Positions 16,075-61,656 of a stretch of DNA of 64,000 bases are shown here, piece by piece. The stretch lies in NCBI RefSeq assembly GCF_001983935.1, contig NZ_CP017641.1:2914001-2978000 (forward strand), in the 5' to 3' direction. The position numbers were made by a program, and so were the translations under genes. How positions within the stretch are numbered: position 1 is the stretch's first letter; every line of letters begins with the position of its first letter. Origin of the DNA: Fuerstiella marisgermanici. Lineage in GTDB: Bacteria; Planctomycetota; Planctomycetia; Planctomycetales; Planctomycetaceae. The notes beneath the pieces are model-generated. The model had not been told where the DNA came from. It did no database searches and was given only the letters and a program-made list of their open reading frames with translations.

Positions 16075-16331
16075 GGTTCTCGCCCAAAGTTGGCTTCAGA
16101 GCTGTGTCGGTCGCCCAGACACGGCCTAATGCGCGAGATTCCGCGTTTCCGAACGCCGTTCACACTTTTTTTCGGTTTTGTGATCCCGTTCGTGCCGCGA
16201 TTACGCAGGAGCCATCGGCAGCTATCCCCGCGCTGACGCCGTCTGCGACTGGGTGAGTAGCCGGGCTGCGGTTGTTGTTCCGCCGTGCTCTGAAATTCGT
16301 TCGCGTCCCTCGTTCGTGAAAGACCGTAAAA

Positions 16332-19300
16332 ATGGCCATGCAAACCACTATAAACGGACCGTCTGCTTCCCATGATCGTCGCTCTTCGTGGCGGATTTCC
16401 AGCGGACTCTTCAGCTACCGCGGCATCGCAAGAACGCTTCATGGGCTCCGTCGGCACTGTCGACAACGAAGCAGAATCGACCGCCACGAATCATGCGTGC
16501 AGTCAATGGAATTGCTGGAACAAAGAAGTCTGCTTTCAGCGATCAGCGTGAGTACTCTGGCTGATTCAGTCGATCCAGCGGACGGTGTGACTTCGCTGCG
16601 AGAAGCCGTGGCGGCAGCCAACGAGCGCCCCGGAGATGACACAATCACCTTCGATGCCAGCCTGTACGCCGACCAGCCCAACGTCATTCGACTGACAAAC
16701 GGACAGTTGGAGATCTCGGATACGGCAGGGAAAACTTCTATTATCGGGCCGGGTTCCGAACGGCTGCAAATCAGCGGAAGCTCCCTCGACCGCATCTTCA
16801 GCATTCAACCTGATGTCGACGCGCAAATATCCGGACTCACACTGACAGACGGCGTCGCTGCGCAAGGTGGCGCGGTCTTCAATTCCGGTCGACTCCAATT
16901 CTCAGACGTCCGTCTGACCAACAACAGCGCGGAAGGTGCTGAAGGAAGACGCGGCACGAAGGGCAGCGACATGACTCGCACACCCGATCCCGGACGACCA
17001 GGTCTGGCCGCTGGAAACGGATTGGATGCCGCAGGTGGTGCCGTCTTCAATGACGGCGATCTCAGGATTGTTGACTCGCTGTTTTCCGAAAATTCGGCCG
17101 TTGGCGGAAGCGGAGGTCAAGGAGGGGACGGTGGAATCGGCGGACGAGACAGCATCAAAGGATACCCCGGCGGGCGAGGCGGACAGGGCGGCGACGGGGG
17201 AAGTGCCAGGGGCGGTGCCATCTTCAATTCGGCATCGGCCACTCTGCATGTCGAAGACACTGGGTTCGCAGGGAACGCGGCCATCGGCGGCGATGGCGGT
17301 GCGGGTGGAAACGGCGGCCGAGGTGGCAGCAAGAAGGTTGGCGGACCGGGCGGCAATGGTGGCCTCGCAGGCGACTCTGGCGACGCGTTCGGTGGCGGCA
17401 TCTACAACGACGGAACGCTGGCCGTTCGGAGTCTTCAGTTTACCAGTGGCCAGGTTGTTGCCGGTCAGGCGGGGAGCCCCGGCAATGGCGGCCTCCCCGG
17501 AGCTGGCGATTACGGTCAGGGATCACGAGGTGATGATGGCTCGTCAGGCACAGCAGGAACCGCTCAGTCGGCGAATATCCACGGTTCATTTACGGAACTG
17601 CCCGAGGATGACTCATCAGGCAACGATACTCCCGTGTACACCATGTCCGAAGCCGTCAGTTTCAATGGCAACAACTTCATCGACATCGATCAGGCGCCGC
17701 CATCGTCGGGGACGATCCTGCTGCAATTCCAGACAAACCAAACCCAAAACTACGGAGCGATTCTGGGCCACTTTAATCACGCGGCCAGCGGACATCGCAT
17801 CTACCTGCATATCAAGGGAGCGGACTTGTACGCTCGGCTGGGATCCGGCAACGAGCACATGGTCGCCGCCAACGTCGCCGACGGTCAATGGCACTCAGTC
17901 GGATTCATCTATGGAAGTACTGCGAACATTGGTTCCGCGCAGGTCTATGTCGATGGGAAGCTTGGCGCATCTTTCACTCCACCTTCGGTTTCGCTTGTGA
18001 CAACACCGGAATTCATGCTCGGAGCAACTCCGGCTACTGTCAAGGGACAGCCTCAGTTGCACTTCAAAGGAAAGATCCGCGAAGTCGAAGTCTACGACTG
18101 GATTCTGCCGGAAAGCCGATTCATCGACGACCCAGCGCCCGTGAAACTGCCGGACCTCAGCGGCAAATTTTTCCAGGCATCTACCGCGGCCGTGCAACCC
18201 GGCGAAACGATCAGCGTCGTCTATGAAATTCAGAATGAAGGCGAATCGCGAGCCGACAGCTTCAAAGTAAACTTTTACGTCAGCGACGACGGCCTGATCA
18301 CGCCGGACGATATTCTGCTGCATACGGCCAACATCTCCGGACTTGACGCCGAAGGTTCAACTGGCCGGCGGACTGCACCGCTGACTTTGCCAGCGGACTT
18401 CAGCAGTCTGGACGATTTCTTCACGATCGGAATGCTGGTCGACGCGGCCGACGACATTTCGGAAAGCGATGAGAGCAATAACTCCAACGTTGGAGTCGGG
18501 CTGGACAAGATGACGCTCGACCTGGACACCACGACCGATTCGCCGCTGCCGCCGACGTCGCCACCAGCCGATCTGACAGTCACCGGCACCAACAATCAGC
18601 AGCCCACCTTCCGATGGGAGGCCGTTGCGAATGCTGATCGATACGAACTGTGGGTCTTCAATCTCGACACCGGACATCGTGTCATTCACCAAACCAGCCT
18701 CCGCACAACCTCGTTTCAACCGTCGCAGGACATCTCACGCGGACGGACCGTTGTGTGGGTCCGAGCCGGCAATGCGGCAGGCTGGGGCACGTGGAGTAAC
18801 GCCGAACGAATCTTTATCGGGCTGCAGCCGCCCGGACAGGTAGAAGTTTATGCATCAGCCAGCGTCAGCGAACCACGTCCTCCCCTGTCGTGGAGCATCG
18901 ATCCGAGTGCTCAGCGGTACGAACTGTGGGTGAATCATGTGAGTACGGGAAATCTGGCGATCCACAAAACCGATCTCACGTCGGCCACGTTCACTCCGGA
19001 GGTCAATCTGGAATCGGGAACGTATCGCATGTGGGTTCGAGCCATCAATGAAGCCGGCTTTGGCAAGTGGAGTCGCCCTGCAGACTTCACCGTCACCGCG
19101 TCCACGGCTCCGCAGACACCGTCGCTGACGACGACGTTCCGAGTCAACACTCCGCGGCCGGAATTTTCCTGGGAAGGCAGCACCGATGCCGATGTGTACG
19201 AACTCTGGGTACACGACCTGGCAACTGGTCAGAAGATTATTCACCGCAACGACCTGCATTCAGAAACCTACGTCCCCACCTTCGACCTGAACGGCGGCGA

Positions 19301-20003
19301 ATACCGTTACTGGGTTCGTGCGGGCAACTCAGTCGGCTGGAGCGAATGGAGTGCTCCACGTGACGTGCAGGTTGGCACTCCGCCAACACAGGTCGTGCTC
19401 ACAGAAGTGACTAACCTGCCCAACGGGCGCGCAGAAATTTCGTGGCAGGCCGCAACAACAGCGGACACGTACGAACTGTGGGTTAACAATTCAGACACCG
19501 GTCAACTGGTGCTGCACGAACGTAATCTGACGGCAACTTCGTTCGAGTCCAACAGTCCTCTTCCAGCCGGCACCTACACAGTCTGGGTGCGGGCGCATAA
19601 CGAATCCGGTCCCGGACGGTGGAGTGATTCGTTGAAGTTCGAGGTCACGACAAATTCCAGCCTGCCCGCAGTCACCTTCGGCTCGCAGCCATTGTCAGGC
19701 AGCACGACATTTGATGCACATGTCCGCTGGAATTCAGTATTCGGCGGGACACGCTATGAGTTCCGTATTGAAGGCATCCGAGCCAACAACATCGAATACC
19801 AATATTCCAGCACCACTGATCAGACAATGGTGATGGTTGACATGGAAGCAGCAGGCCTGCGGGTTGGCGAATACTCTCTGCAGGTCCGAGCCATCCGCAA
19901 TGCGACAGTTGGCACATGGAGTTCACCGCTGAAGTTCTACTACCCAGGCAAATGGCCCGTACAGGCCTACAACGGCTGGATTCTGGGACGTAATACCGAC
20001 TAA
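16332..20003 (+). CDS. Giant secreted mosaic protein: CSLREA-like, Gly-rich, LamG, CARDB, five FN3-like repeats
   Basis: A 1223-aa predicted extracellular protein. A long basic leader ends in MELLEQRSLLSA (residues 59-70), the LEPR-LLS-type tag of planctomycete secreted giants. A CSLREA-type segment follows (TLADSVDPADGVTSLREAV), then a beta-helix-like region. Residues about 197-413 are glycine-rich with GGxGGxGG runs. About 437-600 resemble a laminin-G/concanavalin fold (GAILGHFN, DGQWHSVGFIYG, AQVYVDGKLGA). About 603-726 match CARDB (VVYEIQNEGESRADSF, ISESDESNNSN). From 737 to the end there are five FN3-like repeats, four of them sharing a YELWV core and a WVRAxNxxGxGxWS motif. It is probably an adhesin or matrix protein. 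No C-terminal anchor or sorting motif is evident. Confidence 0.85.
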   Translation: MAMQTTINGPSASHDRRSSWRISSGLFSYRGIARTLHGLRRHCRQRSRIDRHESCVQSMELLEQRSLLSAISVSTLADSVDPADGVTSLREAVAAANERPGDDTITFDASLYADQPNVIRLTNGQLEISDTAGKTSIIGPGSERLQISGSSLDRIFSIQPDVDAQISGLTLTDGVAAQGGAVFNSGRLQFSDVRLTNNSAEGAEGRRGTKGSDMTRTPDPGRPGLAAGNGLDAAGGAVFNDGDLRIVDSLFSENSAVGGSGGQGGDGGIGGRDSIKGYPGGRGGQGGDGGSARGGAIFNSASATLHVEDTGFAGNAAIGGDGGAGGNGGRGGSKKVGGPGGNGGLAGDSGDAFGGGIYNDGTLAVRSLQFTSGQVVAGQAGSPGNGGLPGAGDYGQGSRGDDGSSGTAGTAQSANIHGSFTELPEDDSSGNDTPVYTMSEAVSFNGNNFIDIDQAPPSSGTILLQFQTNQTQNYGAILGHFNHAASGHRIYLHIKGADLYARLGSGNEHMVAANVADGQWHSVGFIYGSTANIGSAQVYVDGKLGASFTPPSVSLVTTPEFMLGATPATVKGQPQLHFKGKIREVEVYDWILPESRFIDDPAPVKLPDLSGKFFQASTAAVQPGETISVVYEIQNEGESRADSFKVNFYVSDDGLITPDDILLHTANISGLDAEGSTGRRTAPLTLPADFSSLDDFFTIGMLVDAADDISESDESNNSNVGVGLDKMTLDLDTTTDSPLPPTSPPADLTVTGTNNQQPTFRWEAVANADRYELWVFNLDTGHRVIHQTSLRTTSFQPSQDISRGRTVVWVRAGNAAGWGTWSNAERIFIGLQPPGQVEVYASASVSEPRPPLSWSIDPSAQRYELWVNHVSTGNLAIHKTDLTSATFTPEVNLESGTYRMWVRAINEAGFGKWSRPADFTVTASTAPQTPSLTTTFRVNTPRPEFSWEGSTDADVYELWVHDLATGQKIIHRNDLHSETYVPTFDLNGGEYRYWVRAGNSVGWSEWSAPRDVQVGTPPTQVVLTEVTNLPNGRAEISWQAATTADTYELWVNNSDTGQLVLHERNLTATSFESNSPLPAGTYTVWVRAHNESGPGRWSDSLKFEVTTNSSLPAVTFGSQPLSGSTTFDAHVRWNSVFGGTRYEFRIEGIRANNIEYQYSSTTDQTMVMVDMEAAGLRVGEYSLQVRAIRNATVGTWSSPLKFYYPGKWPVQAYNGWILGRNTD

Positions 20004-44350: not shown

Positions 44351-44554
44351 GCGCATTGTGGATAGCTGCCGACCGGTCACTGCGGCTATCAAAAACCTGG
44401 TCGCAGATTCGAATCTGACAAACGCACCGATCCCCGCCTGTTTGACGCTGGCGTCTTGAGTATTCCTTGCACACCCGTCAAGATGCTTGTGCAGCGGAAA
44501 TTCGGGTGCGAATTTTCGCGACTCCTTTCTGAATTTTCTGTGAGACCTCTCGAT

Positions 44555-47071
44555 ATGGATCTGCCAACATGTCCATCCTGCGGCCAGTCCGTTCTGGACG
44601 ACGATGCCGTTGACTGCCCTTTCTGCGGTGCTGCGATGGATGGTTCCTCGCCTGCGAAAACGAAGAAGGCTGCACCCGCCGCCAAAAAGAAATCTGCGCC
44701 ACCAGCCGACGGAAAAACCAGGCCCGTCAAAAAGTCGCCACCAGCGTCGGATGCCAACGAAGATCCGTTCGCAATCGCTCAAACACCGGCAGCCACAAAA
44801 GCCATTCGGTGTGCACCGAAACCCATGAAGGGGCGGCTGCACAAAGTGGTCTGCCCCATGTGCGACACGCCCGGTTTTATCCCGAAAGCAGCCGTCGGTC
44901 GACAGGTGAAATGCGCGAACAAAGAGTGCCTCGTACCCATCTTTACAGCAACAGATTCGGACGGCCAAAAGCCAGCGAAGGCGCCCGCTCGAATCAGCGA
45001 TGACGAACCTGAGATTCGACGCAAAAAAAAGACGACGGACAAGCCAGCGAACCCGATGATCAAATACGCGATCGGTGGAGCCATCGCGCTGGCGGCAACG
45101 TTCGGACTGTTGCAGTTTTTAAATAAGCCTGCTCCCGATCAGTTAGGCGCATACATTCCACCGGCCGGCACCAATTCAAACACAGATTTTGAAGACGATG
45201 ATCCGGATTTGGATGCCCCCGCTGGCAAGCAATCGGAAGAAGCGGTCGAAGTCGCTCCGCAGCGGTCCGCCGTTCAATTGATTGCCACCATGATCGATAC
45301 TGCGCGGGTGACCGCCGGCAATCGCGACAAGCCGTTTTGTCGGCAGCTGACGGCCGACGCCTATTTGCGCATGAACATGGAAGCTGAGGCGCAGGCGGAA
45401 TTTGAGCAGATGCACAGAGTCGCCAGCAGTCGCGGCCGGCAGACTCAATATTATCGAACAAAGCCGCTAGTGGCTGACTACTGGAGTAAACTGAAGGCCG
45501 GCGACGCTGCCGGAGCGACCGCCGCGCTGAAGGAAGCTCAGGCCGCAGCAGAAGAAATTCCGTCCGCCGTGCTGTTGGCTCAGGATACAGCGGTCACCCT
45601 CGCGTCCGCCGTCATGAACAGCGGCGACGCAGAAACCGCTCAGAGTTTAATTACGGGGCAGCAGCGAGACAGCACCGTGGCGACTCAACAGGACCAAGTG
45701 AAATACGGCGCGTGGAATTCGCTTGCATTGAAGCTTGTTCATGCGGGCCGTTCGTCACTGCCGCCGCTGCAGGTGTTTTCGTGGAACGAACCTTTGATGA
45801 CGGCGGTTGGAGTCGATCTGTCGATCCACGGTCAATGGCAAGCGGCCACAGACTGGGCGTCAGCGTTGCCGAACGAGCAAACCGCCAGCGACACGTTTGC
45901 AGCAGTGGCGGACCAAATGGTGCAAACCAACGCTCCGGAAGCGGCTCGGGCGGCGCTGGCCACAGCAGCCGAAGCCAAAGGCAGCGACATCGCGCTGCGG
46001 ACGCATTCCGTGCTGGCTCTGGCAGATGGATCACAGGCTTGGTTTGACAAAGCGGCGGCTGGATTCACCGCTCTGCCGAGCGTCCAGGTGGCGAGTTTGG
46101 GGACGATCCCTGAAGTGATCAACATGCGAGCCCCCAAGCTGGACGCTGTTCGTTTGCGCGCCAACTCGCTTGCAGACTTTGTGGCGGCCGCGCACAAGAA
46201 TGCAGCGGCCGATCAGGCAACCGCAGGTCTGAAGCGGTTCACGGAAGAAGTGTTGTCGACCGTTCCTCCCACTAGTGAGGTGCGACAGGCGGGCGGTGAA
46301 ATCGATCGCAATGACAACGCCGTCGAAGAAAAAGTGAAGCAGGCGCTCAGCCTTTCAAACTCCAATCAGGTGCGATCCCGTTTCACTGCCTATCGTCGGT
46401 CGCTGGACGGTTTAATCCGAGCCAGCGAAGAACGGCGGCTGATGGTCATGGAACTGCTCGCCCAAATCGTTCAAAGCGGTGGGCTGCCGATCGTTCAAAC
46501 GGCGCTGCAGGAAGATGGCGGCTTGCTGCGTCAGGAAGTCGCCGTGGATTCCTTAAGCGGCTTACTGTTTGTTGCCGCAGCAACAGTGGGGCAGGAGTTT
46601 CCTGAAGCATTGCAGAACGACGCGGCAGTGGCTGTCCCGGCAGCTCGTGTGGCCAGGACAGACCCGTTGCCGGAACAGGAACTCATTCCTGTCCTCGTGC
46701 AAAGCTGGCAGCAGTTTCAGCAGACATCGGACCTGAAGTCCGCCGCGATTTTGCAATCCAGCCGCGCATTGCCGGGGCTGCAGTCTGCGATGGCTGAACG
46801 GATGGCCGAACAGTTAGCTCAAAGCTCAACGACGCCGGAACAGCTATTCGCTTCGGTCACTCAGCTAAAAAGCGACTTATGGCGTGAACGGTGCGTCGCG
46901 GTGATGTCGCGAATTCTGGCCGACCGAGGCTACTCCAAGCAGGTTGAGCAGGCAATTATCAGTGGATCGCTGACTCCGGTCCAGCGTATACTGTCCTGGT
47001 ACGGTTTGACTCGCAGTGCAATCGATTCCGCAACTGCGTCCGCTGAGGGCACCAAAGCGGCGGGGGCCTGA
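44555..47071 (+). CDS. Zinc-ribbon membrane protein with helical-repeat region
   Basis: An 838-aa protein. A double zinc ribbon (C6, C9, C21, C24) opens it, then a Lys/Ala/Pro linker and a second CxxC...C(x4)C ribbon near residues 100-126. One membrane segment follows near 170-188 (YAIGGAIALAATFGLLQFL). The last 600 residues are helical repeats of TPR/solenoid type rich in Ala and Gln (LTADAYLRMNMEAEAQAEFEQM, AAATVGQEFPEALQ). It is probably an inner-membrane scaffold. No enzyme motif is seen. ATG at 44555 is chosen; the open frame before it is not protein-like. The Uma2-type gene follows after 37 bp. Confidence 0.78.
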   Translation: MDLPTCPSCGQSVLDDDAVDCPFCGAAMDGSSPAKTKKAAPAAKKKSAPPADGKTRPVKKSPPASDANEDPFAIAQTPAATKAIRCAPKPMKGRLHKVVCPMCDTPGFIPKAAVGRQVKCANKECLVPIFTATDSDGQKPAKAPARISDDEPEIRRKKKTTDKPANPMIKYAIGGAIALAATFGLLQFLNKPAPDQLGAYIPPAGTNSNTDFEDDDPDLDAPAGKQSEEAVEVAPQRSAVQLIATMIDTARVTAGNRDKPFCRQLTADAYLRMNMEAEAQAEFEQMHRVASSRGRQTQYYRTKPLVADYWSKLKAGDAAGATAALKEAQAAAEEIPSAVLLAQDTAVTLASAVMNSGDAETAQSLITGQQRDSTVATQQDQVKYGAWNSLALKLVHAGRSSLPPLQVFSWNEPLMTAVGVDLSIHGQWQAATDWASALPNEQTASDTFAAVADQMVQTNAPEAARAALATAAEAKGSDIALRTHSVLALADGSQAWFDKAAAGFTALPSVQVASLGTIPEVINMRAPKLDAVRLRANSLADFVAAAHKNAAADQATAGLKRFTEEVLSTVPPTSEVRQAGGEIDRNDNAVEEKVKQALSLSNSNQVRSRFTAYRRSLDGLIRASEERRLMVMELLAQIVQSGGLPIVQTALQEDGGLLRQEVAVDSLSGLLFVAAATVGQEFPEALQNDAAVAVPAARVARTDPLPEQELIPVLVQSWQQFQQTSDLKSAAILQSSRALPGLQSAMAERMAEQLAQSSTTPEQLFASVTQLKSDLWRERCVAVMSRILADRGYSKQVEQAIISGSLTPVQRILSWYGLTRSAIDSATASAEGTKAAGA

Positions 47072-47108
47072 GCGTGATATTGATCGACTTCATCAGGAGT
47101 TCCTAAGC

Positions 47109-47756
47109 ATGATCAACTCGGCGGTAGCTTCCACCATGGCTGAACGCCTTGAAGAACTGGGCTGCATTGGGCTTGACCGAGTGCGGCTGGACCCGGCTCC
47201 TGGAACGGCGACGATTGACGATCTTGTCGCAGCCAACAGCAACGGGGCGCGTCGCTGCGAACTGATCGATCATACACTGGTGGAGAAGGTCATGGGGTAC
47301 GAAGCTTCTGTCGTAGCGGCGGCCATCCTTGAGTTTCTCCGGCGACATGTCGCGTCGCGAAAGTTGGGGCTGGTGTCTGGGGCGGATGGGTTCTTTCAGT
47401 TGCTGACCAGCTCAGTGCGCGGACCTGACGTGGCTTTGGTGTTGCGTGACCGACTTCCGAATGGCCGCTTTCCGACGGACGCATTTCCTTCGATCGCGCC
47501 TGATTTAGTGGTGGAAGTGTTGAGCCCCGGCAACACAAAGCAGGAAATGTCTCGCAAGCGGATTGAGTACTTTCATTCCGGTGTACAACTGGTGTGGATG
47601 GTCGACTGTACGCACCGCACCGTCGCGGTTTATCAGTCGCCAGACCGGCCTGTGATCCTAAACGAAAATGACATGATCACCGCTGAACCGGTGCTGGCAG
47701 ACTTCTCGCATCCGGTCGCTGAATTTTTCGCGGATCTGGATCTAGGTGCAGAATAG
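47109..47756 (+). CDS. Uma2 family (DUF820) endonuclease-fold protein
   Basis: A 215-aa protein with the PD-(D/E)XK nuclease fold of the Uma2 family. The family order is visible: ELIDHTLVEKVMG (first Glu), GPDVALVLRDRLP (Asp), APDLVVEVLSPGN (the D...E-V pair) and SRKRIEYFHSGVQLVWMVD. Uma2 proteins are very numerous in planctomycetes and cyanobacteria; their target is unknown. The ATG at 47109 has AGGAG about ten bases upstream. Confidence 0.92.
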   Translation: MINSAVASTMAERLEELGCIGLDRVRLDPAPGTATIDDLVAANSNGARRCELIDHTLVEKVMGYEASVVAAAILEFLRRHVASRKLGLVSGADGFFQLLTSSVRGPDVALVLRDRLPNGRFPTDAFPSIAPDLVVEVLSPGNTKQEMSRKRIEYFHSGVQLVWMVDCTHRTVAVYQSPDRPVILNENDMITAEPVLADFSHPVAEFFADLDLGAE

Positions 47757-53517: not shown

Positions 53518-56319
53518 TCACCACGCCAATCGCCCGCCGGGGCTACCCGGCTTTGCAATGGTGTCGATCTGGGAGGTGGCTCGCAGGAGCGCGTTGTCGG
53601 CGAGTGAGTAGCGGACCTGGGACTCAAGGTAGGCGAATTCGGCGGACTGTAGTCGAGCCTGCATTTGCAGTAGGTTTTCGAGGTACAGGTCTGCAACGGC
53701 AACGCCGTCGGCCAGCACGGCGCGGCGAGTTTCTGTGTACTTCAGAATCTTATTGGCTCTGTCCAACGCTTCTTTTTGCTGAGCCAAAACGGCTCCGTAC
53801 TTGTTGCGTTGAATGACCTGGTTGCGGACATCCTCCGTCACCATGCCGATCGTCGCTTCCAGTTGAGCCTGCATGCGACGGATGGCAACGTGCCCCTGTT
53901 CGGCTTTCGCCTGAGCCGCTCTGTTGCGGTACGGGATTTCGAAGTTGAAGCCAATTCCAACGCCAGGTTCTGCCCTTTGAAACTGATCAAGCCAGGCTTG
54001 GCCGATGTTTGAATTTCCGCGAAGGCCCGCCACGTAGCCAGTCAGAACCATATCCAGAACGGGCAGGATTTCGTTGGCAGCCACATCAAATCTGACCGAC
54101 GCCGCTTTGATTTCACGAATGGCTTCATGAATTTCCGATCGTTCATGCAGCGCTTTTTCGATCTGTTGTTCGGGCTGCATCGGTTGGCACTGACGCATCG
54201 GTAGAGTTTCCGGTAGCACTTCCTGATTGACGAAATCTGTAAACCGAGAACCATAGATCAGCCGCAGCAGTGCATCCTGAGCTCGAACGATGTCGTGTCT
54301 GGCTTCGATCGATGAGGCCTTGCGAGTGGCGACTTCAGAACGAGCTCGGTCCATCATCGCCGGCGTGACGTCTACTTCGATGCGTCCCGCCATCTCGTCG
54401 GCAATCTGAGTCGCTCGTTGCAACGACGTGACTGCCTGCAAATACTGACCTCGGCGCAGAACCAACGCCCAGTAAGACGAAGCGACTTCCAGCAGGTGAT
54501 CCTGAATGCCCGCCTGCAGCCGATCGTATGCCGTGTCTTTGCCAATTTCGGCCAGGCGAACCGCGCTGGTGTTGTAATGCTCGCCCGCTCCCTGCAGCAA
54601 TGGACGTTGGTAGTCAAAAGTGATCCGTGACGTGCCCTGATAGTTGGGGCTGATGAATTGTGAGTTACTGCTTTTGGTGCCAAAGTTTTGAGCGAGCTCG
54701 AATTCGGAGCCATCCCGCGATAGCCGTTTCACGCCGCTTCGCGAACTCAGCGTTCGGCTGCGCAGTTGCTGAGCAGCTCCATCAAGCGTGCTTCCAACGG
54801 GATTGCTGTCGCGGTTCCAAATCGTTTCAGCGAAAGTGGTCCAATCGAAAGCCGCATCAAGTCGGTCGACTTCCGCCTGCTGGATAAACCAATCGGAATT
54901 CAAAACTTTGAGCTCCGGCGCTTCTGTCAGAGCCAGCCCCAGCGCCTGCTGCAACGACATGGGCAGCGCGTGACGGCCGGTTAGAATCGGCTGACCAATT
55001 CGTTCTTCCCACCACAGCAAACTGCGGCGATCGGCGCCTAAATGACTGGAGTCGCTTGCAGCAAAACCGCTTTGGTTGGAGGCGAATGGCTGCGACGGAA
55101 ACGTGGAATTGGTTGACGGCGCGGCGAGCGTAGTGGCCGGCGGCGCGTCTGCGTTGGGGATCTGCAGCCCGGCGTGCCCAGCCGTCATCGTTGGCCGGCT
55201 CGCTCGCGGCGCATCCGTTGTGCCATACCTTTGGGGAAGGACCGAATACGGCATCGGGTCCTCATTTTCTGCCACGTTCGAAGTCGAGGCTTGTCCGATC
55301 GTATGTGTTTGAGAGCTTGGAGGTACATGCACGGGACGCGAGTCGGTGGCTGCCGCCGCCTGTGTCTCTGAACTTCGATCAGGCGTCAGAAACGAATGCC
55401 CTGCGGTCGCTGGTGATCGTCTGGGCGGTGCTGAATCGGCTTCGCCCGGAAGCTGACTGAAACGCAGATCCGCATCCCCTTCGGCGATCTGTTGTCGAGC
55501 GTCCGTTTCGGCGGCAGACGAAGGCAACACGCTAACCGGTCGGACTTCATGAGAATGTCCGCTCTGCAATCTGCTACCCATGTCCCGTTCGCCGGGTAGA
55601 ACAGAAATCGCGGGCGACGCCGTCCTTTGTTGAACGTTAGCGGCTTCACGCCGATTGGCTTCCACTGAACGAGCGCCGTGATTTGTGATCAGCGGCGAAG
55701 CTACGTTGCTCGGGCCATCTTTCCCGCGTGGCATGATTGAAATGGAGTCATCAAAAGCAGCATCTAGTGTCGGCCCTGCCAACTGGTTTGAGCCGTGCTG
55801 ATTCGGCAAGACCGAAATCGGCCTCGGACGACGCCCGTTCGCTGCCGTCAGGTTTGCAGCTTCAAAATCGGAGGACCACCGCGCGGAACTCACGCCGCTG
55901 CTACGCTGCGACGCTGTGAGCGGCGCGCCAAACGAATGCCCGCTGTTGACTGATGTCGATTCGAACTGCGAACTGACCTGACGAATCTTCTGGTGTTTCG
56001 GCTTCGCTGCGATGCCGGATCCTGAATTTCCGGACGCCGCAATGTATTCGGCATGCCGCACATTGGGCTCGATCGACAGTGTGAATTCGGCTGTCTCGGC
56101 TTCTTCTGACGGCTGCGGCTGACTCGCGGTCAGCGGTAACGTCGTCCACACGGCGGTGCAAAGAAGTGCAGCCCCCAGCAAGGCAAAGCCATTGCGGTGA
56201 ACGGCGACAGGCTGGGATCTTCGAGCCTTCGTCGTGGCGGAAGGCGGTTTAACACCACCGTTTCCAGCCACCCGCGATTCCGGCGCTTCAGTTCCGATTT
56301 TTTCGGCGGGTGACGTCAC
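53518..56319 (-). CDS. TolC-family outer-membrane efflux protein with long N-terminal extension
   Basis: A 933-aa protein, twice the usual TolC length. The C-terminal half (from about residue 453) is a TolC/OEP domain with two repeats: LPMSLQQALGLALTEAPELK, DHLLEVASSYWALVLRRGQY, and ARLQSAEFAYLESQVRYSLAD. The first 450 residues are unlike TolC. There is a hydrophobic segment near 48-67 (FALLGAALLCTAVWTTLPL) after a 40-residue polar start. A low-complexity Ser/Ala/Pro-rich region with a recurring SVLP-type motif then runs to the OEP domain. The start is GTG at 56319, with no earlier ATG in frame. It is divergent from the GAF-HlyD, M50-HlyD and HlyD genes and is their likely outer-membrane channel. 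Confidence 0.88.
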   Translation of the reverse strand: MTSPAEKIGTEAPESRVAGNGGVKPPSATTKARRSQPVAVHRNGFALLGAALLCTAVWTTLPLTASQPQPSEEAETAEFTLSIEPNVRHAEYIAASGNSGSGIAAKPKHQKIRQVSSQFESTSVNSGHSFGAPLTASQRSSGVSSARWSSDFEAANLTAANGRRPRPISVLPNQHGSNQLAGPTLDAAFDDSISIMPRGKDGPSNVASPLITNHGARSVEANRREAANVQQRTASPAISVLPGERDMGSRLQSGHSHEVRPVSVLPSSAAETDARQQIAEGDADLRFSQLPGEADSAPPRRSPATAGHSFLTPDRSSETQAAAATDSRPVHVPPSSQTHTIGQASTSNVAENEDPMPYSVLPQRYGTTDAPRASRPTMTAGHAGLQIPNADAPPATTLAAPSTNSTFPSQPFASNQSGFAASDSSHLGADRRSLLWWEERIGQPILTGRHALPMSLQQALGLALTEAPELKVLNSDWFIQQAEVDRLDAAFDWTTFAETIWNRDSNPVGSTLDGAAQQLRSRTLSSRSGVKRLSRDGSEFELAQNFGTKSSNSQFISPNYQGTSRITFDYQRPLLQGAGEHYNTSAVRLAEIGKDTAYDRLQAGIQDHLLEVASSYWALVLRRGQYLQAVTSLQRATQIADEMAGRIEVDVTPAMMDRARSEVATRKASSIEARHDIVRAQDALLRLIYGSRFTDFVNQEVLPETLPMRQCQPMQPEQQIEKALHERSEIHEAIREIKAASVRFDVAANEILPVLDMVLTGYVAGLRGNSNIGQAWLDQFQRAEPGVGIGFNFEIPYRNRAAQAKAEQGHVAIRRMQAQLEATIGMVTEDVRNQVIQRNKYGAVLAQQKEALDRANKILKYTETRRAVLADGVAVADLYLENLLQMQARLQSAEFAYLESQVRYSLADNALLRATSQIDTIAKPGSPGGRLAW

Positions 56320-56600
56320 GAGTAATTCCAGTGCCTGAATGTGCGCAAGAAGCCTTCAAAGATGATGATCGGCCGGTTGCACCGATCAGCTTGAGTTTTC
56401 CGGTTATACGGGTTGTGCCGATGCGCGGCGGTCAGGCGGCAATAGGCGTTGCAGAATGAAGACACGTTGACCGAAACCAGCAGGGATTGCCGTTGTTGCG
56501 TCTGAACCGGCCGGGACACGCATGAATGTCCGGCCCAGGTCCGTGCCATGGTGTCTAATGAAAGCTCAGGCCAATCACGCATTCTTGACCGAAGTTTTCT
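56320..56600. promoter_or_regulatory. Divergent promoter region of the TolC / GAF-HlyD / M50 cluster
   Basis: This 281-bp gap is the only place from which both arms of the cluster can start. I could not identify convincing promoter hexamers or an operator. Confidence 0.4.
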
Positions 56601-58553
56601 ATGACGCCCACGGATCCAACAACCGCTCGTCCTGGTGCCGACGGAGCCCGTCCTGCCCCGGCCATGAAGTCGCGAAGTCTGAATTCGCAGATTCGGCCGT
56701 TGCTGCTGGACTGCCCGTCGCGGCAGGCGCTGTTTGAGAAGGTTCTGGAAATCTGCAGCGAACAGTTCAACGCGACGATTGGGCGAGTGGACTTCCGCAT
56801 TGGTGATAAGTCCGAATCGCGAATGACTCACAACGCGATTCTGGCCAAGGCGATGGCCGACCGCTTTAACGCTGAATTCCTCGCTCCGCTGGCTGACGAA
56901 GTAAAGTCGGCGGCCAATTCTGAACCCAAACTAAAACGCTTTGAACGAGGCGACCAAAAGCTGTCGCTGATCTCTGCACCGATCATCGACATCGCCAACG
57001 ACAGCGTCGAAGGCGTCGTCACGTTAATGCTGGGTGGAGGCACCTACAAAGCCGATGTTGTACTGCCGCGACTGGATGGGATCGTCGCCGTTGTTTCCGC
57101 CGTGTTGGTCGCAAAGAGTTCCTCGACGCAGCGGCGTTTTAGTGAAGAGCCCCCCAATAATGCGGCGGCCGCTGGCCTTGCGGCCGGTCGCAACGTCGCC
57201 GAACCGCACCAGGAATCACACGCTCTGGCCAACACGGCTCAGTTCGGTTCCACCAAAGAATTCGGCTACTCGATTGTGAATTCTCTGTGCGGACAACTGA
57301 AAGCCGAACAGGTCTTTTTCGGTGTGGAACACAATCAGCGTGTCACCGTAGAAGCCGTTTCAGGGATCGCCGACTTCAAAGCCAGCAGTCCCGGCATCGC
57401 ACTGGTCCGGCAGGCCATGGAAGAGTGCATTGATACGGCGGACATCACGGTCGCTCAAACGGAACCGCCGGAAGGCATGGATTCCATGCCCCTTCATCGA
57501 CAGTGGTCCGCCGAAAGCCACAACTCGTGCGTCTGCAGTATCCCACTAAAACAGCGAGACGAAATCACGGGCGTGATCAGCATTCGTCGCCCGGCCAACC
57601 TGCCGTTTCGTCAGGACGAACTCGACAAATTGCGAATGATGCTAACTCCGTACGGCGGGGCAATTCGTGTTGTGGAGAAGGCCAACCGATCGGTGGCGGC
57701 TCAGGTAAAAACAGCCGTCGGCGAAACGGCTCGCCGCAATATCAGCAAAGGATCGATCGGCCGCAAGGTAACTCTTGCCGCGATTGGACTTGCGTCACTG
57801 TGGTTTATCTTCGGGACGATGACATATCGCCCTCTGTGCCGCACTCGAGTAACCGCCGCGGGTCTGCGCCACTTTTCTGCGCCGTTCGACGGCAAGCTGC
57901 AAACCGTTCATGTGCGCCCGGGACAACGCGTTTCGGAAGGTGATTTGTTGGTCGAATTCGATACTGTCGACCTGCGGCTGCAGTTGAATGGCCTGCAACG
58001 GCAAATCGAAACCGCTCAGGTCGAACTTCGCCGAGCCATCAGTGACGACGACCTGGCCGTCGCGGCTTTGGCTCGATCACGAGTCACCGTATTGCGAACA
58101 GAAGCGGCCGCCATTCAACGTCAGATTCAGGATGCAACCATCGTTGCACCGATGGATGGAACCGTCGTGCTGTCCGATCTCGACCAGCGTAGCGGACAGG
58201 TTTTCCCGCAAGGGGATGAACTGCTGCAACTGGCGCCGGAAGGCAACTGGTTACTGGAGATTGAAGTTCCGGACGACATCATGAACTACGTAACGGCCGA
58301 CCAAACCGGAACGTTCGCCGCCGCGTCGCTGCCTACAGAAAAGCAGTCGTTCACGATCGAACACATCGATGGAGCGGCCACGCTGATGCAGGATCGCAAC
58401 GTGTTTATCGCTCGAGCACCGTTGAAGTCTCAACCGGAATGGATGAAATCCGGCATGGAAGGTACGGCTCGGATCGAAACGGTTCCGCGACCGGTGTGGT
58501 GGGTTGCGATGCACCGAGCTGTCGACTGGGCACGCACGAACTTTTGGTTTTAG
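56601..58553 (+). CDS. GAF domain(s) fused to a HlyD-type membrane adaptor
   Basis: A 650-aa protein. Residues about 25-175 look like a degenerate GAF domain, and about 220-357 a clearer one (EFGYSIVNSLCGQLKAEQVF, SCVCSIPLKQRDEITGVISI). One membrane segment lies near 389-408 (VTLAAIGLASLWFIFGTM). The rest is a membrane-fusion-protein fold: the biotinyl/lipoyl-like half AAGLRHFSAPFDGKLQTVHV, PGQRVSEGDLLVEFD, a short coiled coil, then DATIVAPMDGTVVLSDLDQ. The layout places a cytosolic sensor in front of a periplasmic adaptor, rare for the HlyD family. It is followed after 74 bp by the M50 gene. Confidence 0.87.
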   Translation: MTPTDPTTARPGADGARPAPAMKSRSLNSQIRPLLLDCPSRQALFEKVLEICSEQFNATIGRVDFRIGDKSESRMTHNAILAKAMADRFNAEFLAPLADEVKSAANSEPKLKRFERGDQKLSLISAPIIDIANDSVEGVVTLMLGGGTYKADVVLPRLDGIVAVVSAVLVAKSSSTQRRFSEEPPNNAAAAGLAAGRNVAEPHQESHALANTAQFGSTKEFGYSIVNSLCGQLKAEQVFFGVEHNQRVTVEAVSGIADFKASSPGIALVRQAMEECIDTADITVAQTEPPEGMDSMPLHRQWSAESHNSCVCSIPLKQRDEITGVISIRRPANLPFRQDELDKLRMMLTPYGGAIRVVEKANRSVAAQVKTAVGETARRNISKGSIGRKVTLAAIGLASLWFIFGTMTYRPLCRTRVTAAGLRHFSAPFDGKLQTVHVRPGQRVSEGDLLVEFDTVDLRLQLNGLQRQIETAQVELRRAISDDDLAVAALARSRVTVLRTEAAAIQRQIQDATIVAPMDGTVVLSDLDQRSGQVFPQGDELLQLAPEGNWLLEIEVPDDIMNYVTADQTGTFAAASLPTEKQSFTIEHIDGAATLMQDRNVFIARAPLKSQPEWMKSGMEGTARIETVPRPVWWVAMHRAVDWARTNFWF

Positions 58554-58627
58554 AAACCACCGCGCCCAGCCGCTTGTGTTTCTGCACAGAACCAGCTCGC
58601 ACGATCCCTGACAATTCCCGATAGACC

Positions 58628-60775
58628 ATGACAACACCTCAGCCAACCGCAAACACGCCCGCCGATCCTCTGGCTCAGGCCCGAGAACTTACGGTGACGT
58701 TGCGTTCGGATCTGAAGGTCAGCCGTCAGGTGTATCAGGGGCACCCGGTCTACGTCATCCACGATCCCGTCTCGTTTCGGACGCACCGCCTTTCGGTTTT
58801 TCAATACCGAGTCCTCGCGGCCATCGACCCGGCCATCAAACTGGATGAGAACTTCAAGTCGCTTGTCGCGAAGCAGGAATTCCATCAGGACGAAGAACAG
58901 ATCTACTTCGAACTGATCACGTCCTTTGCACGACTTGGCCTGATCGTTCTGCCGCAGTCCAACGGCGCGAAGCTGTTCGATCAGCACAACAAAGTCCGCG
59001 CGATGAAACGGCGGGGGAAGTTCCTGAGTGCTCTGTTCCTGCAGATCCCACTGGTCAACCCCGATCGATTTCTAACACGAACAGTCGGCCGGGTTTCGTG
59101 GCTGTTTACGAAAGCGTTTCTGGCCGTGTGGCTGGTGGCGATGGCCCTGACAGGATTTGTCATCGTCAGTCGGTTTGGTGATTTGGTCCAGCCGTTAAAC
59201 GGAATTCTGGCCACAAAGAACCTGCCCTTCTTGTGGGGCTCGTTCGTTTTACTGAAGATCTGGCATGAGCTGGGGCACGGTTATGCGTGCAAGACATTCG
59301 GCGGTTTCGTGCCGGAAATGGGCACTATCCTGATCGCTGGAACTCCGGCCGCATACGTTGATGCCACTTCGGCCTGGAGCTTCCCCGAACGCCGTCGGCG
59401 ACTGGCCGTGATGTGCGGCGGAATGTTTTTCGAATCGCTGATCTTCATCCCCGCTGTCTTTGTTTGGGCGTTCTCAAGCAGCCCCATGTTGGCGTCGTGT
59501 GCCTACCAATTGTTCATCATGGCGGGGTTGGTCACGCTGCTGTTTAACGCAAACCCGCTGATGAAGTTCGACGGTTACTTCATCCTGAGCGAGCTGATTG
59601 GCATTCAGAACCTTCGCCCCAAATCAGACGCTCAAATCAAAGGGATGCTGACGTCAACGTTGCTGGGCATTAAGCGTCCGGCGTCGAACGATTCGTTGCT
59701 CACGAAGGGCATGCTGGTCGTCTATGGCATCTCCGCGACGATTTACAAATTCTTCCTGATTATCAGCATCGCCGTTGTCGTGGCGATGAAGTTTCCAATC
59801 GTCGGCCTCGCACTGGCGGCGTTTCACGTGATCACTTCGGTAGGTTTTGGAGCAATAAAAATGGCAGGCTATTTGTTGAAAAGCAAAGAGACTGAGCCCG
59901 TTCGCGGTCGAGCCCGCCTGCTGGCAGCGGTGGTACTGATCGGCTTACCGATTGCGGCGTGCGTGGTCCCGTTTCCGTTTGGCGTCGTGACTCAGGGAAT
60001 CGTCGGCGCGGAAGTAGAACACTTCGTGAACGTCGATTCTCCTGGCGAATTTCAGACGCCACTGGTCGAGGCCGGCCAGCAGGTCACCGCTGAGGCACCA
60101 TTGGCAACGTTAAAAAACGATCGCCTACAGGAAGAATTAAGCGTCGCTCGTGCGAGTTTGAAGGAAGCCATTCTGCGATGGGAAGTGACTCAGGAAGTCG
60201 ATCGTTCCGAAGCCGCTCAACACAAAGCAACGGTGAAGGAATTGCAGCAGCAAGTCGAAGAAACGGCTCGCCAGGTCCATAAGTTGACACTCTCCGCACC
60301 AGACGATGGCAAAGTTGTGCGACTGCTGTCTCGCACCGACCAGGGCCGTTTTCTACGGGAAGGCACGCCGCTGGCTGTGGTTGTAAGAGGCAAGCCTCTG
60401 TTGCGGACGTGGGTCAATGAAGACCAGCTTGGCAGTATTCAACGAGAAGCCGGAACGGAAGTGACCTTCCGAGTACCTGGCAGGTCGACAACGACGTACA
60501 CCGGAAAGATTGTCAGTGTCGAACCAGCCGCTGAAGGTGTCTTCGACCAACTCGCACTGACCTACATTGGAGGCGGCGAAATTTTGATTGATCCAACGAC
60601 TCGCCGACCACTGGAACCCGTCTTCCAGATCGATATTGAACCAACGCAGGACATCTTAAAGCTGACCGAACACGGAGCTCGGATTCATCTGAATCTTCCT
60701 CGCCGATACGAAAGCGTGGCTGCCTGGACAGTTCGCAAGTGCATGCGTTTCGTGAACAAGCTACTGGTAACTTAG
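58628..60775 (+). CDS. M50 (site-2-protease-like) zinc metalloprotease with PqqD-like N-terminus and HlyD-type C-terminus
   Basis: A 715-aa integral membrane protein. The first 110 residues resemble the PqqD/RRE peptide-binding fold (LRSDLKVSRQVYQGHPVYVI, LGLIVLPQSNG). The protease core has the zinc site HELGH at 213-217 and the third ligand region NPLMKFDGY with Asp315, both intact, among about ten membrane segments. From about residue 455 there is a HlyD-like barrel/hairpin (VNVDSPGEFQTPLVEAGQQV, KLTLSAPDDGKVVRLL). The same architecture is annotated elsewhere as putative peptide zinc metalloprotease, the class that includes Bacillus YydH. It may cleave or move a peptide through the adaptor and TolC proteins coded alongside. 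Confidence 0.88.
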   Translation: MTTPQPTANTPADPLAQARELTVTLRSDLKVSRQVYQGHPVYVIHDPVSFRTHRLSVFQYRVLAAIDPAIKLDENFKSLVAKQEFHQDEEQIYFELITSFARLGLIVLPQSNGAKLFDQHNKVRAMKRRGKFLSALFLQIPLVNPDRFLTRTVGRVSWLFTKAFLAVWLVAMALTGFVIVSRFGDLVQPLNGILATKNLPFLWGSFVLLKIWHELGHGYACKTFGGFVPEMGTILIAGTPAAYVDATSAWSFPERRRRLAVMCGGMFFESLIFIPAVFVWAFSSSPMLASCAYQLFIMAGLVTLLFNANPLMKFDGYFILSELIGIQNLRPKSDAQIKGMLTSTLLGIKRPASNDSLLTKGMLVVYGISATIYKFFLIISIAVVVAMKFPIVGLALAAFHVITSVGFGAIKMAGYLLKSKETEPVRGRARLLAAVVLIGLPIAACVVPFPFGVVTQGIVGAEVEHFVNVDSPGEFQTPLVEAGQQVTAEAPLATLKNDRLQEELSVARASLKEAILRWEVTQEVDRSEAAQHKATVKELQQQVEETARQVHKLTLSAPDDGKVVRLLSRTDQGRFLREGTPLAVVVRGKPLLRTWVNEDQLGSIQREAGTEVTFRVPGRSTTTYTGKIVSVEPAAEGVFDQLALTYIGGGEILIDPTTRRPLEPVFQIDIEPTQDILKLTEHGARIHLNLPRRYESVAAWTVRKCMRFVNKLLVT

Positions 60776-60789
60776 ACAAAGAAGTACTC

Positions 60790-61656
60790 ATGAAAAATCT
60801 CAACACCATAGCGATCGTCGCAGCCTCTGCTTTCGCATGCACGTCGTTTGCCGCCGCGGATGAATCGGATCTGTTTCAACTAGGTGACCAGTTGCACGGC
60901 GTGGCACGCCCATCAGAAATCGCCGAGCTGCCGTCACTGGTGCCTGGCACGATCGTCGAAGTGCACGTGAAGGAAGGGCAGTTCGTGAAGAAAGGCACGC
61001 CGTTGGTGACCATGGATGACCGAGTTCCCAGAGCTCGCCTGCTGGCGGCCACGGTCGAAGCCAACCTGACCGGGGCTCTGAAACGAGCCGAAGTGGAACA
61101 CCGGATGGCAGTCAGTCGACTGAACCGGCTGCGAGCAGCATTGAGTCGCGGGGCCGGCGCCGGTTTTGAACTGGAAGAAGCAGAAGGAGTCCGAGATTCA
61201 GCCGCGGCCGCCATCGAACAGCAGCGAGACATCCTGAAAGCCGCCGAAGCCAACCGTCAACTTGCGGAAGCTCAGCTGGCTCAATACACCATCACCGCGC
61301 CTTTTGACGGACTGGTGACAGAAATTCACCGGAAGTCAGGAGCCATCGATCCTTCGCAGTTGATCGTCACCATGGCCAATTTGTCGACGCTGGAAGTCGA
61401 GATGCATCTGCCGTCTCGACTGTACGGCACCGTCCAGCGCGGACAGACGTTGCCTTTGAAGGCCGGTCAACCGATCGCAAACAGCATCAATGCTTCGGTG
61501 GTTTCCGTATCGCCGATTATCGATTCGGCCAGCGACACGTTTCGTTGTCTTCTGCAGATCAACAACAGCCAGACACTGCTTCCGGCTGGCTTTAGTGTGG
61601 TGTTGAAGAATTCGGACAACAACACCGCCATCGGACGCGTAACCAACGCCCGATAG
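60790..61656 (+). CDS. Periplasmic adaptor subunit (HlyD/membrane-fusion-protein family)
   Basis: A 288-aa exported protein. From ATG 60790 it has a signal peptide (IAIVAASAFACTSFAAA); an in-frame start at 60739 would overlap the M50 gene. The lipoyl-like halves (LPSLVPGTIVEVHVKEGQFV, KKGTPLVTMDD and YTITAPFDGLVTEIHRKSGA) flank a helical hairpin (AVSRLNRLRAALSRGAGAGF, EEAEGVRDSAAAAIEQQRDI). A beta-barrel domain closes it. The M50 stop is only 14 bases upstream, so it is co-transcribed, and it probably bridges the M50 or GAF-HlyD protein to the TolC channel. Confidence 0.9.
   Translation: MKNLNTIAIVAASAFACTSFAAADESDLFQLGDQLHGVARPSEIAELPSLVPGTIVEVHVKEGQFVKKGTPLVTMDDRVPRARLLAATVEANLTGALKRAEVEHRMAVSRLNRLRAALSRGAGAGFELEEAEGVRDSAAAAIEQQRDILKAAEANRQLAEAQLAQYTITAPFDGLVTEIHRKSGAIDPSQLIVTMANLSTLEVEMHLPSRLYGTVQRGQTLPLKAGQPIANSINASVVSVSPIIDSASDTFRCLLQINNSQTLLPAGFSVVLKNSDNNTAIGRVTNAR

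Follow-up and report, generated by a model that had tools for sequence, protein, structure and literature searches.

Gene content of the locus

The window analysed here is a 64,000-nucleotide stretch of the 8.92-Mb, single-contig genome of Fuerstiella marisgermanici (G000:C1:2914001-2978000), and our subject is a cluster of four genes at positions 53518-61656 that encodes a TolC-type channel, two HlyD-type proteins and a fusion protein built around an M50 protease. We regard the cluster as probably a variant of the secondary-SecA/M50/HlyD secretion module, with very large, N-terminally tagged surface proteins as its cargo. The TolC-type outer-membrane channel (933 residues with a long N-terminal extension; 53518..56319, minus strand; Pfam OEP, 1.6e-13) is separated by a divergent intergenic region of 281 bp, read from the sequence (56320..56600), from the gene for a GAF-HlyD membrane-fusion protein of 650 residues, P0002 (56601..58553, plus strand; HlyD_3, 1.9e-14). 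After a spacing of 74 bp comes the gene for P0003, a 715-residue RRE(PqqD-like)-M50-HlyD fusion assigned from predicted folds and motifs (58628..60775, plus strand). The last gene encodes a periplasmic HlyD/RND_mfp-type adaptor, whose open reading frame (ORF) runs from a GTG at 60739 to 61656 on the plus strand (RND_mfp, 2e-34, above the cut-off). By our reading, its start is probably the ATG at 60790, 14 bp past the M50 stop, with which the N-terminus resembles a signal peptide. All four ORFs are open over these coordinates, and together with the profile matches they confirm the arrangement described in an earlier note on this DNA, a TolC gene divergent from packed GAF-HlyD, PqqD-like/M50/HlyD and adaptor genes. 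The GAF match in P0002 alone is weak (5.3e-4, under the cut-off); at E<=0.01, such a match is found in 22 of 23 aligned GAF-HlyD sequences, P0002 among them.

That note had also remarked on the absence of an ABC, RND or MFS pump, and four E. coli probes (AcrB, MacB, EmrB and MsbA) agree, giving no match better than E 0.28 over the whole window. For a type I secretion ABC transporter, the best MacB- or MsbA-like match in the window is no better than E 1.2; for RND and MFS pumps, the best matches there are E 0.42 (AcrB) and E 0.28 (EmrB). Rows of the pump-probe output that stood under wrong labels, one of them an adaptor match listed as TolC, were ignored.

The OEP match of the window TolC covers residues 717-915 at its best stretch, and the long N-terminal part lies outside it. 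Residues 165-367 of this extension carry six loosely spaced repeats of the form [IVFY]S[VIQ][LM]P (for example ISVLPNQ, ISVLPGE and YSVLPQR). Related TolC ORFs are likewise long, with 1,137 residues at L025 and 974 at L052.

The M50 fusion protein

P0003 is laid out as an RRE domain (residues ~20-110), a membrane domain of the site-2 protease (S2P) type (~113-446) and a HlyD part (~447-697). Searches of NCBIfam, Pfam and PHROGs found no named family for the whole fusion; Peptidase_M50 reaches 17.5 bits against a cut-off of 27.2. The M50 part is matched by the NCBIfam daptide metalloprotease model at E 3e-42 (145 bits, short of the cut-off at 300) and by the LiaK model at 5.5e-8. An AlphaFold2 model built from a 41-sequence alignment has a pLDDT of 86.3. 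In VIA-align comparisons, residues 450-693 of this model resemble MacA 9qgy_G (Z 15.3, root-mean-square deviation (rmsd) 5.2, 217 aligned), and residues 194-326 resemble the RseP orthologue 7w6y (Z 10.9, rmsd 3.1, 131 aligned). The protein carries HELGH at residues 213-217 and NPLMKFD at 309-315. With HExxH and NPxxxxD placed within an S2P-fold membrane domain, P0003 is, as modelled, an M50 (site-2) protease.

The N-terminal domain, predicted alone, has a pLDDT of 93.1 and consists of three strands followed by three helices in a winged-helix fold. Its closest comparisons include the leader-bound lasso-peptide protein B1 6jx3_B (Z 10.5, rmsd 3.0, 84 aligned), leader-bound TbiB1 5v1v_A (Z 10.1, rmsd 3.0, 85 aligned) and PqqD 5sxy (Z 8.3, rmsd 2.8, 85 aligned). 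We made the assignment by fold because a PDB profile search with this domain, rejected as a guide, ranked designed TIM barrels (E 0.0016) over PqqD (E 0.014). On its predicted structure, the N-terminal domain of the fusion is a leader-recognition (RRE) fold of the kind that serves ribosomally synthesized and post-translationally modified peptides (RiPPs), and the PqqD-like label given earlier was well chosen.

Relatives of the module

Relatives were sought in one genome per species over 84,980 species, and the counts that follow refer to the best 80 of at least 589 confirmed stretches (at least 594 were found). HExxH is kept in the M50 proteins of all 80 loci, in line with the intact HELGH and NPxxxxD motifs stressed in the earlier note; NPxxxxD is present in all 80 by construction, as it belonged to the search pattern. 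A GAF-HlyD protein, or a HlyD protein of the same group, accompanies the M50 gene in 73 loci, an adaptor in 52 and TolC in 11. TolC was dropped as a constantly linked member on this BLAST count, which is probably too low because TolC diverges fast. Pump-like matches occur in a few of the 80 loci (MacB/MsbA-like in 6, AcrB-like in 2, MFS in none), and none of the 80 has a pump between the system genes. The gene set thus co-occurs widely without a pump, as had been anticipated, and a dedicated ABC or RND pump linked to the set, which would have spoken against the idea, was not found in the loci examined, the rest of the genome not having been pump-searched.

The window genome itself holds five further M50-HlyD paralogues (L015-L019), which stand beside two further HlyD-type genes at L015, L017 and L018 and beside one at L016 and L019. 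With these five paralogues and the 80 related loci elsewhere, the cluster is no chance arrangement. The paralogous operon L017 has the order TolC, SecA-like, adaptor, GAF-HlyD and M50-HlyD, and its TolC matches that of the window at 33% (E 3e-84). In 16 of the 80 loci, a DUF3467 gene of ~100-120 residues lies beside the GAF-HlyD gene; its product has no PDB relative by sequence and is possibly a chaperone, suspected to be SecB-like.

The module is also present on plasmids, with matches in 78 of 72,556 plasmid records. The E. coli form of the operon is present in 24 of 5,426 E. coli genomes, and 21 of its 25 places are on plasmids. On the E. coli plasmid NZ_CP081687.1, the operon (L041/L048) has insertion sequence elements on both sides and no annotated SecA.

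A short SecA as candidate motor

A gene for a short SecA is found in 60 of the 80 loci, always downstream of the M50 gene and on the same strand, with a median gap of 176.5 bases; the remaining loci comprise 10 with sufficient flank and no SecA and 10 with flank too short to tell. In a 16-row alignment, the short SecAs have invariant residues in TGEGK, DE-x-D and GRxxRQG. Twelve of the 15 short SecAs of that alignment are BLAST segments rather than whole ORFs, and the length check was repeated on 50 complete ORFs, which have a median length of 669.5 residues (44 of the 50 within 600-760). Aligned to E. coli SecA, the short proteins stop near residue 660, and the 43 complete ORFs with the RxxRQG motif continue for 67-85 residues after it, compared with 322 in E. 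coli SecA. The truncation removes the helical wing and the two-helix finger, the SecY-engaging parts. Loss of SecA_SW in a secondary SecA was already reported in 2015 (PMC4452313, main text).

The window contains no SecA (best probe E 0.33), and SecA as a member of the window system by adjacency was dropped. Elsewhere in the same genome there are three short SecAs: the first belongs to the M50 operon L017, the second (L025) neighbours a TolC gene, and for the third (L024) no partner was recognised in the stretch examined. The main text of PMC4452313 describes some secondary SecAs that are not co-encoded with their partners, which then sit elsewhere in the genome, and for this reason we treat the SecA-less window locus as a variant and not as an exclusion. 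In a quick tree of the module, the window belongs to a clade of nine rows (SH-aLRT 100) in which no adjacent SecA is seen, with five rows lacking it and four having flanks too short to tell; SecA is absent, too, from an E. coli-type clade of five. L018 and L019 sit on long branches of this tree and join each other directly, and the SecA labels of plasmid rows were taken from annotation or ORF lists.

Over 119 genomes of the window phylum, a short SecA is present in 15 of 28 M50-positive genomes versus 3 of 91 M50-negative ones (p 5e-9). A short SecA was defined by a frame of <800 residues and a match past position 598, and the counts were read by hand. Two M50-positive genomes outside this rule were counted as lacking it (G167, with an M50-linked SecA in a frame of 880, and G250, with a partial match); the three M50-negative genomes counted as having it are G192, G221 and G234.

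Giant tagged proteins beside the module

Very large genes recur beside the module. In seven of ten plasmid neighbourhoods, an annotated gene of at least 3,300 residues stands next to the set. The largest, in Variovorax paradoxus CP063167.1 (L172), is a 48.7-kb gene for 16,239 residues annotated with tandem-95 repeats. The others are in Pseudosulfitobacter (12,737 residues), Methylosinus (8,847), E. coli (NZ_CP081687.1; 4,459, cadherin-like/DUF4347), Thalassospira (4,033, annotated LEPR-XLL), Azospirillum (NZ_CP032347.1, L176/L178; 3,383) and Burkholderia anthina (3,302, annotated DUF4347). A Pseudohalocynthiibacter neighbourhood has a large unannotated open frame, a Magnetospirillum one has a 492-residue repeat protein without the tag described below, and a Rhizobium one has no giant within the stretch examined.

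The giants share a short tag at the end of a basic leader, with the consensus L-E-x-R-x-[LM]-[LMF]-S-A or, in the E. coli-type branch, L-E-x-R-x-[LMV]-[FY]-D-[AG]. It is readable in all seven plasmid giants, in Azospirillum on a distinct DUF4347 ORF overlapping the start of the giant; tags of the LExRxx[FY]D type are those of E. coli, Azospirillum, Variovorax and Burkholderia. DUF4347 comes after the tag in several giants. In Azospirillum NZ_CP032347.1, overlapping ORFs are annotated separately for the tagged DUF4347 part and an Ig-like part, which has the look of a split gene or a broken frame. The CP063167.1 giant lies directly upstream of TolC, adaptor, HlyD and M50-fusion genes, with type II secretion genes on its other side.

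A tagged ORF is found at 19 of the 80 genome loci, many others of which have too little flank. The tag occurs in 13 of 23 large unclassified ORFs near the loci, versus 6 of 336 smaller ORFs, three of which are giants cut short, and 17 of 11,500 shuffles. Over 42 tagged N-termini, the commonest residues read F-E-x-L-E-P-R-L-L-L-S-A-D. Of these, E and R are imposed by the search pattern, which for 19 rows additionally demanded S, D or A where the consensus has S; the A was unconstrained and is present in 34. The 42 include one mis-anchored row (the window genome's own 3,546-residue ORF, in which the pattern hit a stretch ahead of the tag) and two L068 ORFs that are not giants. The leaders have a median of 40 residues and a net charge of +5. 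A Sec-like hydrophobic window is present in 1 of the 42 tagged N-termini versus 53 of 74 adaptor and TolC controls; the tagged proteins were started at the first upstream M, and the stretch tested in them is not the same as the first 60 residues used for the controls. The genome of L082 has a tagged open frame of 18,012 residues (G004:C10:53906).

Association at the level of whole genomes

At 20 loci, from 19 genomes, a large ORF continues past the end of the locus; these genomes were compared with 14 control genomes. The NCBIfam model LEPR-8K matches over its cut-off in 18 of the 19 genomes, in frames of up to 18,012 residues, and is weak (E ~0.03) in two planctomycete-like genomes, those of L052 and L056. 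Seven of the 14 controls have a match at E<=1, one of them over the cut-off.

A wider test covered 145 genomes of the order of G015 (the genome of L108, Billgrantia, which was the seed), with thresholds of E<=0.001 for the tag and E<=1e-30 for the M50 fusion. The tag is present in 16 genomes and the M50 fusion in 40, a number that includes a few partial or short-frame matches (e.g. G034), and all 16 tag-bearing genomes have the fusion (p 8e-11, or 3e-10 without the seed genome). DUF4347 occurs in 25 of the 40 M50-positive versus 8 of the 105 M50-negative genomes, and the tag or DUF4347 in 33 of 40 versus 8 of 105 (p 2e-18). An M50 gene is no more than 10 kb away from 12 of 19 tag matches and from 24 of 43 DUF4347 matches, with gene ends estimated from open frames. 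Among the 119 genomes of the window phylum, DUF4347 at E<=1e-20 is found in 7 of 28 M50-positive versus 0 of 91 M50-negative genomes (p 2e-5); at E<=1e-5, the counts are 10 of 28 and 3 of 91. The module co-occurs with, and adjoins, both tagged giants and a short SecA.

Cargo candidates and surroundings in the window genome

The window genome has three large frames that bear DUF4347, of 9,818, 2,584 and 3,546 residues, all far from the window. The first two are tagged LE[EQ]RILMSA and are the best cargo candidates of this genome; the tag of the third reads LEDRVLFDA. The LMSA form was otherwise seen at L057, L091 and L156 (in the genome of L056), all members of the window clade. This pairing of tag form and clade is suggestive, being drawn from five sequences and noticed after the fact. 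LEPR-8K finds nothing in the window genome at E<=0.001; at E<=10, it gives three matches over the cut-off, one of them in a 730-residue frame (G000:C1:2807998). The tag has therefore diverged in this genome, as matches appear only at the relaxed threshold.

Within the window, a motif scan points to a possible cargo-like protein of uncertain membership, 33.5 kb from the cluster (16320..20003, plus strand; a 1,223-residue ORF at 16332-20003). Its N-terminus has the tag MELLEQRSLLSA, and it is matched by LamG, CARDB and fn3; CSLREA_Nterm reaches 5.7e-4, under the cut-off. This LamG/CARDB/fn3 protein (16320-20003), with N-terminal MELLEQRSLLSAISVSTLADS, may be another tagged surface protein.

The neighbours of the cluster are redoxin, trpA and rpiB-like genes upstream and an aldehyde dehydrogenase gene downstream. 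Near it, an 871-residue ORF with a weak zinc-ribbon match (44456-47071, plus strand) overlaps an ORF resembling Uma2 family nucleases (47016-47756, plus strand). The gene content of the genome, with DUF1559 and many protein kinases, is planctomycete-like.

Proposed mechanism and alternatives

If the cluster is a module for the export of tagged giants, a path can be outlined from the cytoplasm to the cell surface, in which we infer binding, cleavage, pore formation and every other functional step from fold and neighbourhood. On the cytoplasmic side, the fusion's RRE domain would bind the leader, and the M50 site would then cut at or near the tag. The M50 protein or an adjoining SecYEG would give the chain passage through the inner membrane, with a short SecA, encoded elsewhere in the case of the window, pulling on it. 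The HlyD parts of the three proteins, together with TolC, would take the chain over the periplasm and the outer membrane, and the GAF-HlyD protein is a possible gate. Three features suggest this path. A tag with no Sec core points to a special route; the fusion of RRE domain, protease and adaptor suggests that the exporter itself reads the leader; and the truncated SecA of most loci suggests a motor without the SecY end. Where a short SecA is missing, the work must fall to canonical SecA or to some other source of energy; otherwise the motor step of the model is wrong. A bolder form of the proposal, which we offer tentatively and consider rather doubtful, is that RiPP-style leader reading exports the giants by a path that is neither SecYEG nor ABC: the RRE-protease-HlyD fusion would read and cut the LExRxLLSA leader, and the motor would be a SecA without its SecY-engaging end or, in some clades, there would be no dedicated motor.

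Several observations weigh against the export of tagged giants by this cluster. In the window, no giant adjoins it, the nearest tagged ORF being the one 33.5 kb off, and the five other M50 fusions of the genome could serve its giants. Thirteen of the 28 M50-positive planctomycete genomes lack a short SecA by our rule, as do E. coli-type operons by annotation or search, and the motor is therefore not universal. Of the 23 large ORFs near the loci, ten are untagged, several of these resembling shadow ORFs antisense to real genes, and the E. coli giant is unmatched by LEPR-8K, its tag having been read by eye. In the order of G015, 7 of the 40 M50-positive genomes have neither marker and eight M50-negative ones have DUF4347. 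For the RRE assignment, Foldseek with the RRE model gives nothing at E<=0.001 (the best match, at E 0.011 and probability 1.00, is of the RRE kind), and Pfam PqqD is matched by 27 of 37 aligned sequences but not by P0003 itself.

An alternative that we judge unlikely, and yet take seriously, assigns the set an accessory role in maturation: the giants would cross by canonical Sec or some other exporter, and the M50/HlyD/TolC proteins would only trim, release or anchor them. M50 proteins are proteases and are not known as pores. The 10 of 80 loci that lack an adjacent SecA despite sufficient flank, the E. coli-type operons that also lack one, and the DUF4347 proteins in 8 of 105 M50-negative genomes would all fit such a role. 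It accounts poorly, however, for the lack of a Sec-like hydrophobic core in 41 of 42 tagged N-termini, for the adaptor genes that accompany the protease gene in most loci, and for a truncated SecA in 60 of 80. The earlier note had proposed that a peptide bound by the PqqD-like part is cut and exported. The RRE fold, together with the daptide (3e-42) and LiaK (5.5e-8) matches of the M50 part, agrees with a small RiPP-like precursor, but no recurring short precursor was noticed at the 80 loci (short ORFs were not surveyed) and large tagged genes recur instead, which makes a peptide exporter improbable and leaves that part of the note unsupported. More generally, its account was sound as to the pumpless set and the PqqD-like part and overlooked the short SecA motor in 60 of 80 loci and the neighbouring giants.

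The remaining alternatives dispense with protein export by the M50 fusion. It is common for a TolC channel to be shared and for its gene not to be linked to a pump gene, and the adaptors and TolC could work with an ABC, RND or MFS pump whose gene lies elsewhere, the M50 fusion being a regulator. Such ordinary tripartite efflux is very improbable given the HlyD domain in the M50 protein itself and the absence of a pump from the window and from among the system genes of all 80 loci, the rest of the genome not having been pump-searched. Still harder to sustain is a signalling cascade in which the M50 fusion, as a site-2 protease, releases a regulator and the GAF-HlyD protein is the sensor. The GAF domain and S2P-type fold suit that role, and a sigma-54 activator and a histidine kinase lie beside the paralogue L019; yet no such regulator is among the 16 proteins scanned at L015-L018, a part of the neighbours there, and adaptors recur at all five paralogues.

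Relation to known systems and significance

The secretion module to which we assign the cluster was described by Kamneva, Poudel and Ward in 2015 (PMC4452313), who proposed the M50 protein as a possible pore replacing an ABC transporter and a SecA without SecA_SW as a possible ATPase. According to the main text of that paper, the locus encodes GAF-HlyD, M50-HlyD and HlyD/biotin_lipoyl proteins, sometimes OEP, and no ABC transporter; its hosts are Planctomycetes, Verrucomicrobia, Proteobacteria and other groups, among which the authors propose that it was transferred from genome to genome. A locus of Methylobacterium extorquens AM1 is named there. The same text calls the broader biological role of the module completely unknown and does not contain 'giant', 'LEPR' or 'DUF3467'. 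The earlier note's suggestion that an M50 protein takes the place of the inner-membrane pump is thus upheld as to pumplessness and is not new, being already in print there. The window locus shares with the 2015 module the M50-HlyD fusion, GAF-HlyD, HlyD adaptor and OEP, and differs from it in having no adjacent SecA and a divergent TolC.

Type I secretion of giant adhesins (HlyB/HlyD/TolC) likewise uses HlyD-type adaptors and TolC for very long, repetitive cargo. Its signal is C-terminal, whereas the signal proposed here is N-terminal and the module has no ABC transporter. RiPP systems such as those of daptides and of epipeptides (LiaK) have a leader-recognition fold and a sequence-related M50 protease, but in the module RRE, M50 and HlyD are fused in one protein, and the proposed cargo has hundreds to thousands of residues. 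The tags of many proposed cargoes match the model of LEPR-XLL domain proteins (NCBIfam NF012209, LEPR-8K) over its cut-off. A LEPR-XLL protein of ~8,000 residues is reported in a passage of PMC10868602 that makes no link to this exporter; the name LEPR-XLL also occurs in PMC9611531, and passages of PMC12322963 contribute nothing on export. No link from the module to LEPR-XLL or DUF4347 proteins was found in the open-licence literature, preprints and most subscription journals aside; the cargo link is apparently unreported, though priority is not certain. What we believe to be new is the association with this cargo, the RRE domain recognised by fold, the DUF3467 and DUF4347 companions, and the SecA-less window clade.

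How proteins of many thousands of residues can be exported without an ABC transporter and without a Sec signal is an open question, which this association addresses. It gives the machine described in 2015 a concrete class of cargo and a candidate signal, making the question testable. If true, the proposal would join RiPP leader recognition with type I-like secretion.

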